Both the position numbers and the translations under genes were made by a program. DNA of 32,386 nt from Sulfolobales archaeon (lineage in GTDB: Archaea; Thermoproteota; Thermoprotei_A; Sulfolobales; AG1). The notes under the pieces were generated by a model that saw only the letters and a program-made list of their open reading frames with translations, did no database searches and was not told where the DNA came from. Positions 55 to 32,386 of the stretch are shown here, one piece after another. Positions within the stretch are counted from its first letter, which is position 1; the number at the start of each line of letters is the position of its first letter. Where the stretch lies: NCBI GenBank assembly GCA_038897115.1, contig JAWAXC010000012.1, forward strand, positions 1 to 32,386, written 5' to 3'.

Positions 55-579
55 CTATGTTTTTCTTGTTAGTGCTTCTACAAGTCTGTTTATCACTATA
101 TCTCTTAGGCTGTCCATGCTTGTTCTTAGCTGCTTCATATCAGCCTCTAGCCCCTCAACCCCTTTCTCAAGGGCTTCAACCCTCTTCTCTAGGAGCTCGA
201 TCCTCATTGTTAGGTTCTTCTCAACCTCCCCAATTCTTCTCTCAAGGTTTCTCCCAAGCTCTTCAACCCTTTTCTCGAGCATGTCCATCCTCTTCTCAAT
301 AAGATCCATTCTCCTCTCAATTGAGCTCATTCTCTCTGATAGGCTCTTCTCAAGAGCCTCCATCCTTGCCTTTAAACTTTCTTCTAGGCTTGCCATTCTC
401 TTCTCAATCGCGTCCATTCTAGCCACTAGCGTCATCCTTGTAGCCTCCATCAATAGGAAGCCTACCTCCCAATCGCTTAGCTTCTCACCTCTAACGGCTC
501 TATCAATGATCTTCTTAGCATATTCTGTAAGTATGGAGGCTATAACATCTATCCCGATAGATGCGACATGCTCAGCCAT
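55..579 (-). CDS. coiled-coil protein of unknown function, copy 1
   Basis: The protein has 174 residues and no recognised enzymatic motif. Residues 1-50 form a compact helical head (start MAEHVASIGIDVIAS). From about residue 52 to 165 there is an almost uninterrupted heptad coiled coil built from repeats of the type RM-x2-IEKRM and LEKRVE, rich in Glu, Arg, Lys, Leu and Met, so a long rod or oligomer is expected. No membrane segment or signal peptide is seen. The ATG at 579 has GAGG seven bases upstream and an A/T-rich TATA element at 608-617, about 34 bases upstream, so the mRNA leader would be very short. A partial paralog with near-identical C-terminal sequence lies at 32122-32386. Related coiled-coil ORFs are common in Thermoprotei genomes, but their role is unknown to me. 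Confidence 0.75.
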   Translation of the reverse strand: MAEHVASIGIDVIASILTEYAKKIIDRAVRGEKLSDWEVGFLLMEATRMTLVARMDAIEKRMASLEESLKARMEALEKSLSERMSSIERRMDLIEKRMDMLEKRVEELGRNLERRIGEVEKNLTMRIELLEKRVEALEKGVEGLEADMKQLRTSMDSLRDIVINRLVEALTRKT

Positions 580-617: not shown

Positions 618-704
618 ACATAGCCTCTCAATGTTTAGGTGACCTCAGATATGTCTAGAAAGCGGTATTATAAGATCGGGGTTTTAAGCCCGAGGCTATG
701 GAAA

Positions 705-739
705 CTAATCTCTCCATGTCCTAGGAGGGCGAGGCTTCC
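705..739 (-). repeat. degenerate IS605-like right-end hairpin (minus strand)
   Basis: On the minus strand it begins GGAAGCCTCGCCCT, which matches the start of the intact hairpin at 7539-7570 (GAAAGCCTCGCCCT) except for one base. The 3' half (AGGACATGGAGAGATTAG) follows the same order as AGGGCGGGGAAGAGGTAATAG but has lost much of the pairing. Interpreted as a decayed copy of the same element. Confidence 0.35.
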
Positions 740-1110
740 AGTCATAACCTCGATCTGCCTCCATTGAGACCTCCGGATCATAGGTGTGGGGAACTTCTAT
801 ATACAGGATATTTATCTAGCTTAGCAAAAACCCCTGGGGAACTCTTTATGAAGGAGCTTTAAGTAGTCAGGCTTTTAGCTCTAGAGTTTAATTATCGAGC
901 TACCAGGTTCAACGTGTTTTAGAGCGGTGATCAGCTCTCTTCATGGTTGCTTGTGCCTGTTATTTTCACTATGTTTGTTATCTTGGGCAAGGCCTTCTCT
1001 CAACACTTGCCTATAGATCGCAGGTTCATTAGGTATAAAGTCTCTCACTTGCCAATGCCTCTAATGCTTTTAAACATCTATTATAGGTTTTGAAGGCTTT
1101 AATAAAATTA

Positions 1111-2503: not shown

Positions 2504-2699
2504 TCTATCACATAGAGCGATATACCCACCTGCTATAAGATGTATAGAGGAGCTAATCAATTTTATTACATTAAGATAACTCCAGCAAAGCTACATAATC
2601 TAATAGCCACCCATAACACACAAATAATTCGGACTACAGAGAGCTATAAAGATCCAAACCAACATCTTTTTACTAAAGCCTTTCCTATCTGTTATGAAT

Positions 2700-2731
2700 G
2701 AAAGCCCCATAATTTAGAGTGGGGATGAGGT
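2700..2731 (+). repeat. solo IS200/IS605-like right-end hairpin
   Basis: The sequence starts GAAAGCCCCA, has a ten-base A/T-rich loop and closes TGGGGATGAGG. The stem CCCCA/TGGGG pairs perfectly over five bases. The frame GAAAGCC...GGGG(A/T)(A/T)GAGG is shared with 7539-7570 and is the form seen at the right end of archaeal IS200/IS605 elements, where the tnpB-linked guide RNA scaffold ends. No tnpA or tnpB is nearby, so this is a solo end or remnant. Confidence 0.5.
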
Positions 2732-2921
2732 TGGGCTACGGGAAACTTGTTTAAACAAGATATTTATACAATTTATCAGCGGAGGTTCATTAGATCATCT
2801 TTCACCGAGCGACAGCTCATCATCAATATCTATATTTCTAGGCAATCTTATAATTATGGCTTCTCAGCAGGGTTAGTTAGAGTTGGATAACGATGTTGTT
2901 ATAGACCAGGGTATCTTTTAG

Positions 2922-2953: not shown

Positions 2954-4117
2954 ATGAGGATCTATACGGATAGGTATATCATCACCCCAGGGCCTACTGA
3001 GATCCCCTATAGGGTTAGGCTTGCAATGGCTAGGGAGACAACTAATCCTGATCTGGATCCAGAGTTCCTCGATCTATATAATCGTGTTAGGGGGAGGGTT
3101 AAGGATCTCATATCTGCACAGAGATCTGATGTATATCTAATGGTTGGGGAGGCTTTGATGGGGCTTGAAATAGCTATTGCTAACATGGTTAGGAGAGGCG
3201 ATAAGGTTGTTGTGATAGCTAATGGTGTATATGGCGAGGGATTCGCCGATATTGTTAGGGCATATGGTGGTGATCCTATCCTAGTCGCCTCTAATGATTG
3301 GAGGAGATCTGTTGATCTCGGGGATCTCGAGAGGGCCCTTGAGAAGAACAAGGATGCAGATCTTATAACCCTTGTCCACTGCGATACCCCCTCAGCCCTT
3401 CTAAACGATCTAAGGGGTGTTGCTAGGATCGCAAGGGATAGGGGTGCTTATCTAGTTGTAGACGCTGTTTCAAGCGTTGGAGGGGTTGAGGTTAAATTTG
3501 ATGAATGGGGCGTTGATGTTCTCATCACAGGCTCTCAGAAGGCTCTGAACGCGCCAACAGGGGTTACCATAATGGCTATCTCTAAAAGGGCTTGGGATAG
3601 GATTGAGAGGACAGGCTATAGAGGCATATACCTCTCCCTCAAATCATGGAGGGACATGCTGGATGGCAAAGGCGTTTTCCCCTACACCATGAGCGACCCC
3701 CTGATCTATGCCCTTGATGAGGCTCTGAACATCCTATTTGAAGAGGGGCTTGAGAATGTATTTAGAAGGCATGAGCTTGCTAGAAAAGCCTCTTGGGAGG
3801 CCGCGGCATCCCTAGGCCTAGAGCCGTTTCCAGCCTCTATAGATGATTCATCACCAACTGTTACAGCACTGCTAGTGCCTCGGGGTGTTGATGAGGCTAG
3901 GCTTAGGATGCATATATGGAGGAAATATGGTGTCATGCTGGCTGGGAGCTGGGATAGGCTGGAGGGGAGGGTTCTGAGGATCGGGCATATGGGTATCCAG
4001 GCATCTAGAGGACATCTTATCCAAGCTTATACAGCCCTTGCAAGGGGTTTAAGAGATATGGGTCTCGATGTTAGCATCTCAAAGGCTGTCGAGGCTATAG
4101 AGGATGTGTTTAAATAG
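2954..4117 (+). CDS. class V aminotransferase (alanine/serine-glyoxylate type)
   Basis: The 387-residue cytosolic PLP enzyme belongs to fold type I, class V. It opens with a TPGPTEIP motif (11-18), typical of alanine-glyoxylate and serine-pyruvate aminotransferases, where it lines the substrate pocket. VVDAVSSVGG gives the PLP-nitrogen Asp at 170, and GSQKALNAPTG places the Schiff-base lysine at 196. HCDTPSALLND (142-152) matches the region binding the cofactor face. Length is normal for the family. It probably moves an amino group from alanine or serine to glyoxylate or a related 2-oxoacid; the exact donor and acceptor cannot be read from sequence. The start ATG has a TATA box 27 bases upstream. 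It stands alone, followed by an Lrp-TRASH regulator about 180 bases downstream. Confidence 0.85.
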   Translation: MRIYTDRYIITPGPTEIPYRVRLAMARETTNPDLDPEFLDLYNRVRGRVKDLISAQRSDVYLMVGEALMGLEIAIANMVRRGDKVVVIANGVYGEGFADIVRAYGGDPILVASNDWRRSVDLGDLERALEKNKDADLITLVHCDTPSALLNDLRGVARIARDRGAYLVVDAVSSVGGVEVKFDEWGVDVLITGSQKALNAPTGVTIMAISKRAWDRIERTGYRGIYLSLKSWRDMLDGKGVFPYTMSDPLIYALDEALNILFEEGLENVFRRHELARKASWEAAASLGLEPFPASIDDSSPTVTALLVPRGVDEARLRMHIWRKYGVMLAGSWDRLEGRVLRIGHMGIQASRGHLIQAYTALARGLRDMGLDVSISKAVEAIEDVFK

Positions 4118-6175: not shown

Positions 6176-7522
6176 ATGCCAGGTATACTTGCTGGTATAA
6201 GATATGATGATCCTCTTGTGAGGTATAGAGGGGATAAGCTGGTAGAGATTGTTAAGAAACTCTCAAGATCTAAGAGGGCTGATACGATCAACACAGATCT
6301 TGGGATAGATGTTTTCTACCTCTTCTACCTCCCATTCCCCATACTAGTTCCTCCCAAGAAGGGCGAGCTGGATCCGTGGACAATGCTTAGATATATGATC
6401 GCGAGGGAGATCCTAAGCAGTGAGGAGGCTAGGAAGATAAGGTATTACACGATAGCCCACAGCGGTAGATCTATAATAGTGGGTGCCAGCTTCCTAGAAC
6501 ACCTGTTAAACGAGCTCAGCCCACAGCAAGGGGGAGGGGGAGAAGGTGGTGGGGAGAGTGAGAAAAGGGATCAGGGGGAGGGGGAGGGGGATGAGGGTGG
6601 TGATAGAGATAAAAGAGGATCTAGTATTAGGGATGCTATTAGAAACGCTCTTAGAAAGGTTGGGAACGAGCTAGAGAATATCTCCAAGCTAGAGCATCTC
6701 TCCATGGGAACCCAAGCAGGGACTGGATCTCTGTTGGAGATGATAGAAAACTCCAGCGATATCCTCAGGCTAGCTAGGAACACAGATGTTCAGAAGCTAC
6801 TGGATAGCCTTAGCTTTATAGAGGATATGACCCTTAGATTCAGGAGGAAAACAATTAAATCACCTAAGGGAGAGGTTGTTGGCTATATAAGGGGTTCCCA
6901 CATACAGAGGGCATCTAGATCCGAGCTAGCCCTTTTCGAGGATGAGGAGGCCAGCTGGGTTCTTCTATATAAGTGGGCAACTGGCAAGCTGATCCTATAT
7001 GAGAAGGTTGTGAGACAGGACTACGGGCCCCTCTATGTTCTCCTAGATAAATCGGGATCCATGGATGGTGAGAAGATAAGGTGGGCGAAGGCAACGGCGA
7101 TAGCTCTCTTTATGAGGGCTAGGAGGGAGGGTAGGCCATTCCTAATAAGGTTCTTCGACTCAGCACCATATAGCCTTATAAAGGTATCTAGATCTAGCAA
7201 GCCCGGCGAAACCCTGAGGCTGATGGACTATCTAGCTAGGATAAAGAGCGGTGGGGGGACAGATATAACGAGATCCATTATAGTTGCGTGCCAAGACGTC
7301 TCGGAGCTGAAGATGAAGGGCCTTGGAGAGCTTATATTGATAACAGACGGTGAGGATAGGATAGCTGAGAACATGGTTAGGAGGCATCTGAAGGAGAATA
7401 ATCTAAGGCTAATAACTGTTATGGTTATGGGTGAGAACCCGGATCTCAGGAGGATCAGTGCTAAGTACTTCAAGGTAGCTAAGCTAAGCAATAAGGAGAT
7501 GCTAGAAGTTCTAGAGCTATAG
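6176..7522 (+). CDS. VWA-domain protein, MoxR partner (CoxE/ViaA-like)
   Basis: This is a 448-residue cytosolic protein. The C-terminal von Willebrand A domain (about 284-448) has an intact MIDAS: DKSGS (Asp291, Ser293, Ser295), Thr362 in GGGTDITRS, and Asp391 in LITDGED. The N-terminal half is helical and split by a Gly/Glu-rich low-complexity linker (about 118-145). The ATG at 6176 lies eight bases after the MoxR stop and is preceded by GTGAT, so the two genes form one operon. By analogy with MoxR-VWA pairs, the ATPase would remodel a client bound through the metal site; the client here is unknown. The gene ends 17 bases before an IS605-like hairpin (7539-7570) that may also act as its terminator. 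Confidence 0.85.
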   Translation: MPGILAGIRYDDPLVRYRGDKLVEIVKKLSRSKRADTINTDLGIDVFYLFYLPFPILVPPKKGELDPWTMLRYMIAREILSSEEARKIRYYTIAHSGRSIIVGASFLEHLLNELSPQQGGGGEGGGESEKRDQGEGEGDEGGDRDKRGSSIRDAIRNALRKVGNELENISKLEHLSMGTQAGTGSLLEMIENSSDILRLARNTDVQKLLDSLSFIEDMTLRFRRKTIKSPKGEVVGYIRGSHIQRASRSELALFEDEEASWVLLYKWATGKLILYEKVVRQDYGPLYVLLDKSGSMDGEKIRWAKATAIALFMRARREGRPFLIRFFDSAPYSLIKVSRSSKPGETLRLMDYLARIKSGGGTDITRSIIVACQDVSELKMKGLGELILITDGEDRIAENMVRRHLKENNLRLITVMVMGENPDLRRISAKYFKVAKLSNKEMLEVLEL

Positions 7523-7538
7523 CTCAAGGGTTATAACT

Positions 7539-7570
7539 GAAAGCCTCGCCCTTCAGGGCGGGGAAGAGGT
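7539..7570 (+). repeat. solo IS200/IS605-like right-end hairpin (best copy)
   Basis: GAAAGCCTCGCCC, loop TTCA, then GGGCGGGGAAGAGGT. The stem of 7544-7551 with 7556-7563 pairs over eight positions (one U-G) around a four-base loop. This closely matches the hairpin found at the right end of archaeal IS200/IS605 and tnpB elements. No transposase or RNA-guided nuclease gene is in the window. It sits between the convergent ends of the VWA gene and the M24 peptidase gene, so it could also work as a transcript-end hairpin. Confidence 0.6.
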
Positions 7571-7588
7571 AATAGGTAAGGATAACCC

Positions 7589-8734
7589 CTATATCTGGAT
7601 TATATCTCTGGATATCTTATCCAATATAATTACATCACCATTATCTAGGATCGCCACATCGCTCTCAACCCTGAGGCCGAAGCTACCTCTAAAATATATC
7701 CCAGGCTCCACCGTGAATACATTGCCCTTTTCAAGGATATCGCTTGAGTTTATAGATAGATAGGGTGGTTCGTGAACCTCTATCCCTATGCCATGTCCCG
7801 TTCTATGGAGTATATTCTCCTTCAACCCGTACTCTGTTAGGCAGCTCCTAACCCTAAGATCTACTTCAGAGGCTCTCACACCTGGGGATATAGATGATAT
7901 GGCTTCTGAGAAGCATGTTGATAGCTGTGAAAACCTCTCCCTAACCTTATCTGGGATTGGGCCTAGATGGTAGAGCCTTGTGAGATCCGATATATAGCCC
8001 TCCACAGACACCCCTAGATCTATTAGAACTAGATCCCCATATGCTAGTCTTCTATCACCTGGTATATGGTGTGGATTCGCTGTGTTCTCGCCAAACGCTA
8101 CTATTGCTTTGAATGCCTCGTCAAAGCCCATCGAAGCTATTATGCTGGAGAGCTGTGATGCTAGAAACTTCTCTGTAATGCCAGGAGCTAGGATCCTATA
8201 GATCTCCTCAAAGATATTCTCAGCAGCCTTTACAGCCCTCCTTATAACCCCAACCTCATATAGGGATTTCCTCGCCCTTAGATCCCTAAGGATCTCTGAT
8301 GCTAGATATGTAGATATCGGTGATAATATTTCTCTGAGGTATAGGTAGATCTTGAGATCCATTGTATCCTCGAAAGCACCCCTCCTACCATATATCCTAA
8401 GCCTTCTAGCAGCCCTCTCGATAAAGGTGCTAACGTCATCGGAGTCACTCCATATAAGTATATCCATGTACCCCCCAGCCCAGCTAGGTATATTAGCTAG
8501 CCTAGGTGCTATGAGGATCCTCTCTCCATCTGAGTTCATTAGAAGCAGCATTAGCCTTTCATAGCTCTCCTCAGAGAAGCCCGCTAGATATCTGAAATTG
8601 GGGGATGGGGTTAAGGCTATATAGTCGATACCCATCCTCCTCATAGCCTCTGAGGCAGCTCTAGCCCTTCTCTCAAGCTCTCTAGCTATCTCCTCTGGAG
8701 CCCCCACTCCTTCGTCCCTATACACTCTTACCAA
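7589..8734 (-). CDS. M24 Xaa-Pro dipeptidase/aminopeptidase
   Basis: This is a 381-residue metallopeptidase of the creatinase/prolidase fold. The N-terminal domain (about 20-150) is the usual creatinase-like region; the C-terminal pita-bread domain carries all five metal ligands: Asp239 (LIDLG), Asp250 (SDLTR), His314 (RTGHGIG), Glu343 (TVEPGIY) and Glu357 (RVESD). It would cleave dipeptides or N-terminal residues next to proline. Start choice is uncertain. The longest frame begins TTG at 8734, but a TATATTAAAA element at about 8743-8752 would put transcription start near 8722, favouring GTG at 8725 or 8707. It is monocistronic and divergent from gar1-tfb. Confidence 0.88.
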   Translation of the reverse strand: MVRVYRDEGVGAPEEIARELERRARAASEAMRRMGIDYIALTPSPNFRYLAGFSEESYERLMLLLMNSDGERILIAPRLANIPSWAGGYMDILIWSDSDDVSTFIERAARRLRIYGRRGAFEDTMDLKIYLYLREILSPISTYLASEILRDLRARKSLYEVGVIRRAVKAAENIFEEIYRILAPGITEKFLASQLSSIIASMGFDEAFKAIVAFGENTANPHHIPGDRRLAYGDLVLIDLGVSVEGYISDLTRLYHLGPIPDKVRERFSQLSTCFSEAISSISPGVRASEVDLRVRSCLTEYGLKENILHRTGHGIGIEVHEPPYLSINSSDILEKGNVFTVEPGIYFRGSFGLRVESDVAILDNGDVIILDKISRDIIQI

Positions 8735-22341: not shown

Positions 22342-22454
22342 TTAGGATGATTGTTGAGCTATATATACTAGCTATTCCTCAGCTGGTTGGATTTTAAAGC
22401 CCGAGCCCGGGGATTAATTTTCTGCGGTAGCTCATTATATGTTAGGTATGTTAT

Positions 22455-28081: not shown

Positions 28082-28199
28082 CTAGATCTTGTGAGTTATT
28101 TTCAAATCTAGATCGGATCCTCTGTATAGTGCTTCACAGCTGAAAGCTTGTCCATAGAGCGGTTTGAGATCAGATCTTCCTAGAGATCCTTGCCAAGGT

Positions 28200-32021: not shown

Positions 32022-32061
32022 TCATCACCATAGATATTCTCCTATTCCACCTTACAGCTGA

Positions 32062-32101
32062 AAACCTACTCCTCTGAATGGAGAAGGGGTTAGATAACAT
32101 C
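32062..32101 (+). repeat. degenerate IS605-like hairpin beside coiled-coil copy 2
   Basis: GAAAACCTACTCC, loop, GGAGAAGGGG, then GGTTAGAT. It parallels the element at 8-47 beside copy 1, but is separated from the coiled-coil stop by an extra block of about 24 bases. It has the same order as the clear hairpin at 7539-7570, with weaker pairing. Confidence 0.4.
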
Positions 32102-32121: not shown

Positions 32122-32386
32122 CTATGATTTTCTTGTTAGTGCTTCTACAAGTCTGTTTATTATCAGGTCTCTCAGGCTATCCATGCTTGCCCTCAACTGC
32201 TTCGTATCAGCCTCTAAACCCTCAACCCTTTTCTCTAAGAGCTCGATCCTCATTGTTAGGTTCTTCTCAACCTCTCCAATCCTTCTCTCAAGGTTTCTCC
32301 CAAGCTCTTCAACCCTTTTCTCGAGCATGTCCATCCTCTTCTCAATAAGATCCATCCTCTTCTCGATAGACTCCATCCTTGTTTTT
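32122..32386 (-). CDS. coiled-coil protein, copy 2 (5' end beyond window)
   Basis: The visible C-terminal 84-88 residues form a charged coiled coil (ESIEKRMDLIEKRM, then MLEKRVEELGRNLERRIGE), almost identical to the end of the protein at 55-579. Differences include loss of one heptad block (ALEKGVEGLEADM becomes a shorter GLEADT) and Ser instead of Thr as last residue. The frame stays open to the last base (KTR upstream of the Met at 32376), so the true start lies outside the window. The Met at 32376 is unlikely to be the start. The sequence identity of more than 85 percent by eye over the shared part points to a recent duplication or conversion. Confidence 0.72.
   Translation of the reverse strand, partial: KTRMESIEKRMDLIEKRMDMLEKRVEELGRNLERRIGEVEKNLTMRIELLEKRVEGLEADTKQLRASMDSLRDLIINRLVEALTRKS

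Follow-up and report, generated by a model that had tools for sequence, protein, structure and literature searches.

Terminal-only, single-hairpin IS200/IS605-type elements in a Sulfolobales genome and its relatives, with sister elements ending in the host CRISPR repeat

The window hairpin and its surroundings

The window, 32,386 nucleotides long, is the whole of contig C12 in an assembly of 2.44 Mb (188 contigs, 96% complete). The hairpin at 7539–7570 lies between two convergent genes, in a solo element positioned 17 nt past the stop of a VWA gene. As originally predicted, it folds as both DNA and RNA into an 8-bp stem (one G·T pair) with a TTCA loop, flanked by GAAAG on the 5′ side and GAAGAGG on the 3′ side, and 100 shuffles of the window put the chance expectation of its 21-base core at 0. 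No Rfam family matches the hairpin. The left half of the enclosing element resembles the left ends, and its right half the right ends, of elements resident in the same genome, placing the copy in the solo class described below. The covariance-model score listed for it in Table 1 is a training score, as 7529–7574 is itself among the sequences from which the model was built.

Both cleavage sites of this copy are decayed, the left one as listed in Table 1 and the right one from TCAG to TAAT, within 7564–7573 (+). The stretch upstream is VWA coding sequence and not an omega-RNA scaffold, no T-run follows the hairpin on its 3′ side, and the other copies in the window are decayed as well; for these reasons the window copy is probably inert. 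Among the further copies originally claimed here, those at 2700–2731 and 32062–32101 are recovered by the covariance model, those at 28141–28170 and 705–739 (minus) are borderline, and those at 8–47 and 22393–22414 are not recovered even at E 10. The accompanying statement that the window lacks tnpA and tnpB stands, with no tnpB match (PF07282) on the contig and no tnpA match (PF01797) in the whole assembly.

The solo is flanked by the VWA gene and an M24 peptidase gene (window 6176–8734) whose relative order is inverted in the relatives G001, G002 and G004. This places the solo at or near a lineage-specific rearrangement, and the hairpin is absent downstream of the same VWA gene in G001. Two different elements may have recombined to give the window solo. 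Paralogous coiled-coil genes occupy both ends of the contig, at 55–579 (-) and 32122–32376 (-), and resembling sequence occurs in contigs C145, C123 and C15; contig C12 probably breaks at these gene repeats.

Table 1. Positions of the features in the window (first nine lines) and of the CRISPR-ended sister elements elsewhere in the genome.
Feature	Position	Strand	Basis
Solo (terminal-only) IS200/IS605 element: left-end tip, one hairpin, right-end tip	7529..7574	+	covariance model, 64.4 bits
Left cleavage/target site TTAT (consensus TTAC), decayed	7531..7534	+	alignment with other copies
Left-end guide tetranucleotide AAAG, immediately 5′ of the hairpin	7540..7543	+	same place as AAAG in IS608 (PMC5934647)
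Hairpin, stem 7544-7551 with 7556-7563, loop TTCA 7552-7555	7544..7563	+	DNA and RNA folding
Right-end tail AAGAGGTAAT (consensus AGGAGGTCAG)	7564..7573	+	alignment with other copies
Decayed solo, outer part retained, stem broken mid-way	2690..2735	+	covariance model, 26.3 bits, E 2e-4
Decayed solo, TTACAGCTGAAAAC ... GGGGTTAGA	32050..32094	+	covariance model, 22.0 bits, E 2e-3
Possible remnant, ends only, CACAGCTGAAAG ... GAGATCAG	28132..28174	+	16.4 bits, E 0.04, borderline
Possible remnant	704..749	-	14.8 bits, E 0.11, borderline
CRISPR-ended copies 1-8	C48:6164, C69:5069, C7:37169(-), C7:30116(-), C30:19873, C102:958(-), C39:1395, C20:10553
CRISPR-ended copies 9-16	C11:4395(-), C82:581(-), C37:13556, C135:4585(-), C8:36487(-), C123:1896(-), C4:26331, C85:3775(-)
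CRISPR-ended copies, example spans	L058:1395-1656, L062:1665-1925

Copies of the hairpin and their transposon family

The whole-genome motif search proposed with the original prediction returns 56 places that match a 30-base pattern with at most three mismatches, while the reversed pattern has 0 matches in the whole assembly; together with the shuffles of the window, this rules out a chance origin of the hairpin. R1, a covariance model derived from 24 strong copies, scores 149 places at E≤1, or 72 under stricter filters at 1e-5. These counts take in the ends of full elements and are not pure solo counts; the copy number in the genome is estimated at about 100–150. Sorted by their flanks, the 100 best matches divide into 50 solos, 37 left ends and 13 right ends, a division made by simple similarity scores in which a few decayed copies may be misassigned.

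The three classes differ in layout. Left ends read TTAC, AACTG and AAAG, followed by the hairpin and ATGTTGTTAATGCTTATAA, whereas right ends lie 3′ of tnpB and consist of an omega-RNA-like stretch (ATGTAGCCCAAACCTCCCC...), then GAAC, the hairpin and AGGAGGTCAG. The solo, 43 bases long, joins the left half of a left end (TTAC, AACTG, the guide AAAG and the 5′ stem) to the right half of a right end (the 3′ stem and AGGAGGTCAG). The copies had originally been described as right-end hairpins; their left-half sequence rules out a right-end-only reading, and they are left-end/right-end fusions. In addition, the omega-RNA stretch that precedes the hairpin at the right ends of tnpB elements is absent upstream of the solos. 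In seven of the 50 solos (C24:15115, C28:12999, C39:18337, C25:8789, C2:73271, C23:24144 and C4:4831) and in no left end counted, the guide reads GAAG in place of AAAG; GAAG could pair passably with both cleavage sites, and seven solos are too few for a conclusion.

Two-ended forms tie these copies to a transposon. Around tnpB, the distance between left and right ends is about 1.4 kb (for example C13:29424 and C13:30843); in tnpB-less forms it is about 240 bp (for example C30:5167–5451 and C83:1671–1953). The genome holds 26 tnpB-type matches; this hairpin follows about ten of the resident tnpB genes, seven of which also have a matching left end upstream. The hairpin is thus shared with the right ends of resident tnpB elements, which bears out the proposed IS200/IS605 origin. 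The orphan, MITE-like status of the copies is supported as well.

The ends also obey the family's pairing code. The cleavage sites of IS608, TTAC and TCAA, are selected by base pairing with guide tetranucleotides 5′ of the hairpins, AAAG and GAAT respectively (PMC5934647). Here the corresponding pairs are AAAG/TTAC at left ends and GAAC/TCAG at right ends, so that left and right ends differ at two positions of the guide and two of the site, which co-vary with Watson–Crick pairing retained. This points independently to ends of the Y1-transposase type; the fit covered left ends and right ends other than the B-type. Subterminal hairpins in the same orientation at both ends characterize the seven resident tnpB elements, as well as complete tnpA+tnpB elements with the same ends in the relatives G072 and G022 and in Hyperthermophilic Archaeal Virus 2 (HAV2), where the element is annotated ISDka2. 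A gene in C74 is interrupted by a solo exactly at the TTA of the target, as judged by a paralogue in C1 with 82% identity over 334 bases; homology stops at TTA, which supports the left boundary at TTA(C), and the right flank is not homologous. The hairpin copies derive from an IS200/IS605-family transposon, and at the family level their origin is settled. The likeness to IS608 and ISDka2 extends over the TTAC target, the AAAG left guide, the subterminal hairpins and the presence of tnpA and tnpB in complete forms, whereas the solos lack genes, keep a single hairpin and have no guide that matches their right cleavage site.

Across the order, the hairpin occurs in 34 of 78 sampled genomes, with a patchy distribution and up to 72 copies per genome. 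Named records with near-consensus copies are Desulfurococcales, Desulfurococcaceae, Ignisphaera and one Caldivirga. Solos exceed tnpB matches in several genomes (G041 has 36 hairpins versus 5 tnpB matches), and 9 of the 11 genomes with at least 18 copies lack a PF01797 match. The solos of G061 and G041 read TTACAACTGAAAGCCTCGCCCTTYAGGGCGGGGAGGAGGTCAG with few changes and show no similarity outside the element; G061 has 48 copies, while its congener G046 has none. The 17.7-kb HAV2 genome (GU722197; L268) carries two solos, at 6690–6735 (-) and 3009–3055 (+), beside ISDka2, and one of them is identical to the consensus. No relatives of HAV2 were found among viral contigs.

Origin of the single-hairpin copies

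The hybrid structure of the solos, the guide/site code and the coexistence of full-length and 240-bp two-ended forms are direct observations. They lead us to regard the solo as probably a relic of core deletion, in which the tips of the left and right ends became joined at their shared hairpin. In full elements the two end hairpins repeat each other directly over about 20 bp, and loss of the core would therefore yield a solo: a deletion between the two hairpins, within one element or between two, would remove tnpB and the omega RNA and leave the 43-base unit, much as a retrotransposon leaves a solo LTR. The left-half/right-half hybrids that make up 50 of the 100 sorted copies support this route, and the missing resident tnpA is compatible with it, since a complete element needs TnpA and a relic does not.

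Elements of this kind are already known as the terminal-only PATEs of Haloquadratum walsbyi, which are 52 bp long and derive from HqIRS46 and ISHwa23 (PMC3119063). Both have IS605-type ends fused at one near-terminal palindrome with the core lost, no terminal inverted repeats, no expected target duplication and scarce transposase genes. Comparison of Haloquadratum strains shows elements of 390 bp and 1500 bp shrunk to 52 bp (PMC3119063); core deletion is therefore seen directly there, whereas for the present solos we infer it from their hybrid structure. The present elements differ in belonging to Thermoproteota, in sequence, in their length of 43 bases and in being present in numerous families of a single order as well as in a virus. 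The range of terminal-only IS605 relics is thereby widened from Haloquadratum to an entire order of heat-loving archaea and one of its viruses.

Several observations weigh against core deletion. Among the genomes compared, one per species, no site was found that is occupied by a full element in one of them and by a solo in another. The G061 and G041 solos are as uniform as if they were self-spreading, and solos outnumber tnpB matches in several genomes, with no tnpA found in the genome studied here. Comparisons of insertion sites gave the following. Against G001, the genome is too rearranged for an empty-site comparison. At three G061 solos the genes are collinear with G046, which has no hairpin there, and the intergenic sequences have diverged too far to show an empty site to the base. 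When joined flanks were used to look for empty paralogous sites, a single left boundary came out (C74/C1), and the two regions compared between G032 and G042 share only the hairpins.

The possible, less likely alternative is that the solo, once fused, became a mobile 43-base unit spread in trans by a Y1 TnpA gained and lost along with viruses and full elements, as in bacterial REP sequences. Uniform 43-base units in unrelated flanks and distant families fit such spread, as do high copy numbers beside few tnpB matches, the contrast between G061 and G046, and the two solos in the small HAV2 genome, one of them consensus. In Haloquadratum, moreover, six strain-specific sites all carry the 52-bp form, which its authors thought may move (PMC3119063). 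However, the single AAAG guide fits TTAC and mispairs with TCAG at two positions, so that the solo should be a dead end; most of the copy-rich genomes have no PF01797 match, and no base-exact empty site was found. The comparison with REP sequences and their TnpA_REP (RAYT) is itself mixed: both consist of numerous scattered single hairpins preceded by a tetranucleotide on the 5′ side of the stem, but the solos have AAAG in place of a GTAG-type tetranucleotide, the outer TTAC and TCAG are conserved, most carriers have no resident Y1 transposase, and neither TnpA_REP nor any other Y1 transposase match occurs in the genome studied here. The copy numbers found are high enough to address whether an element of 43 bases with a single hairpin is able to move, a question dating from 2011.

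It is very improbable that the hairpins are structured transcript ends or terminators sharing sequence with a transposon by chance, a role that the original prediction had raised. The window copy does lie between convergent genes just after the VWA stop, but it has no T-run and no counterpart downstream of the same gene in G001, many copies are decayed, and conservation reaches the TTAC and TCAG outside the hairpin, as at transposon ends. Least credible, to the point of being negligible, is the other suggested role as trans-acting omega-RNA or guide-RNA scaffolds for TnpB: the hairpin is the last part of the omega-RNA region beside the guide in full elements, but the solos have no scaffold upstream, where the window copy has VWA coding sequence.

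Sister elements ending in the host CRISPR repeat

Sixteen tnpB-less copies share the left end described above; their non-coding body is omega-RNA-like and corresponds to that region of the 240-bp forms, after which GATCTACTATAGAATTGAAAG stands in place of the right-end hairpin (Table 1). This sequence is the repeat of the genome's own CRISPR arrays on C9 (79 units counted) and C45 (57), the latter contig also bearing a type I-A operon (Cas7/Csa2, Cas5a, Cas3′, Cas3′′ and Cas8a2). After the repeat, 10 of the 16 copies continue with GGGGAGGAGGTCAG or a close variant, and in the other six unrelated DNA follows at once. A TATA-like CTTATAAG is present in the left end. Further CRISPR-ended copies lie at C14:7302 and C28:1447, with related ones on C5 and C56.

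Among copies chosen by left end and body, with up to three substitutions permitted in the repeat and none having more than one, the repeat shows a mean pairwise identity of 97.1%, against 82.5% for the rest of the element; no 21-column stretch of the rest is as conserved as the repeat. None of the resident tnpB genes is followed by the CRISPR repeat, a contrast that is not a count of independent events, as all CRISPR-ended copies may stem from one capture. A search of 320 CRISPR spacers against the element loci examined gave no match. Pairing of the repeat with the element body is not claimed, the predicted pairing resting on invariant pairs.

A tentative reading is that a tnpB-less branch swapped the 3′ terminus of its omega-RNA-like body for the host CRISPR repeat, and that its transcript could be processed by Cas6 and then either jam the CRISPR system or provide it with flanking DNA sequence as a guide. 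Cas6 processing would produce RNAs beginning with AUUGAAAG and then GGGAGGAGGUCAG, and would directly link a TnpB-type transposon to a class 1 CRISPR system. If jamming occurred, the element would be a transposon-borne RNA anti-CRISPR; if guiding, the host CRISPR system would stand in place of TnpB. Alternatively, the repeat may be retained only as a transposase recognition site, or may be the frozen accident of one capture event.

As in solitary CRISPR repeat units and RNA anti-CRISPRs (Racr; PMC10651486), a lone host-type repeat sits on a mobile element. The known cases are in viruses and plasmids (PMC10651486), whereas here, in at least 16 chromosomal copies, the repeat forms the terminus of an IS605-type element that lacks tnpB and has an omega-RNA-like body. 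In the literature searched, which lay mostly outside subscription journals, no IS605-type element with a class 1 CRISPR repeat at its end was found described. The CRISPR-ended sister element thus looks new, and these elements merit follow-up.

A separate, well-conserved repeat of about 216 bp that looks non-coding (G061 L171:5858–6078) occurs in dozens of copies in G061 and G038; it was set aside as a second CRISPR-ended element, as its end is not a demonstrated CRISPR repeat. Related CRISPR-repeat ends occur on other bodies at L283:5420 (C56) and at L291:269 and 2190 (-) (C5). The one on C56 is preceded by AGACCCCAGCAAAAA, which resembles B-type tnpB right ends, and may represent a second, independent join.
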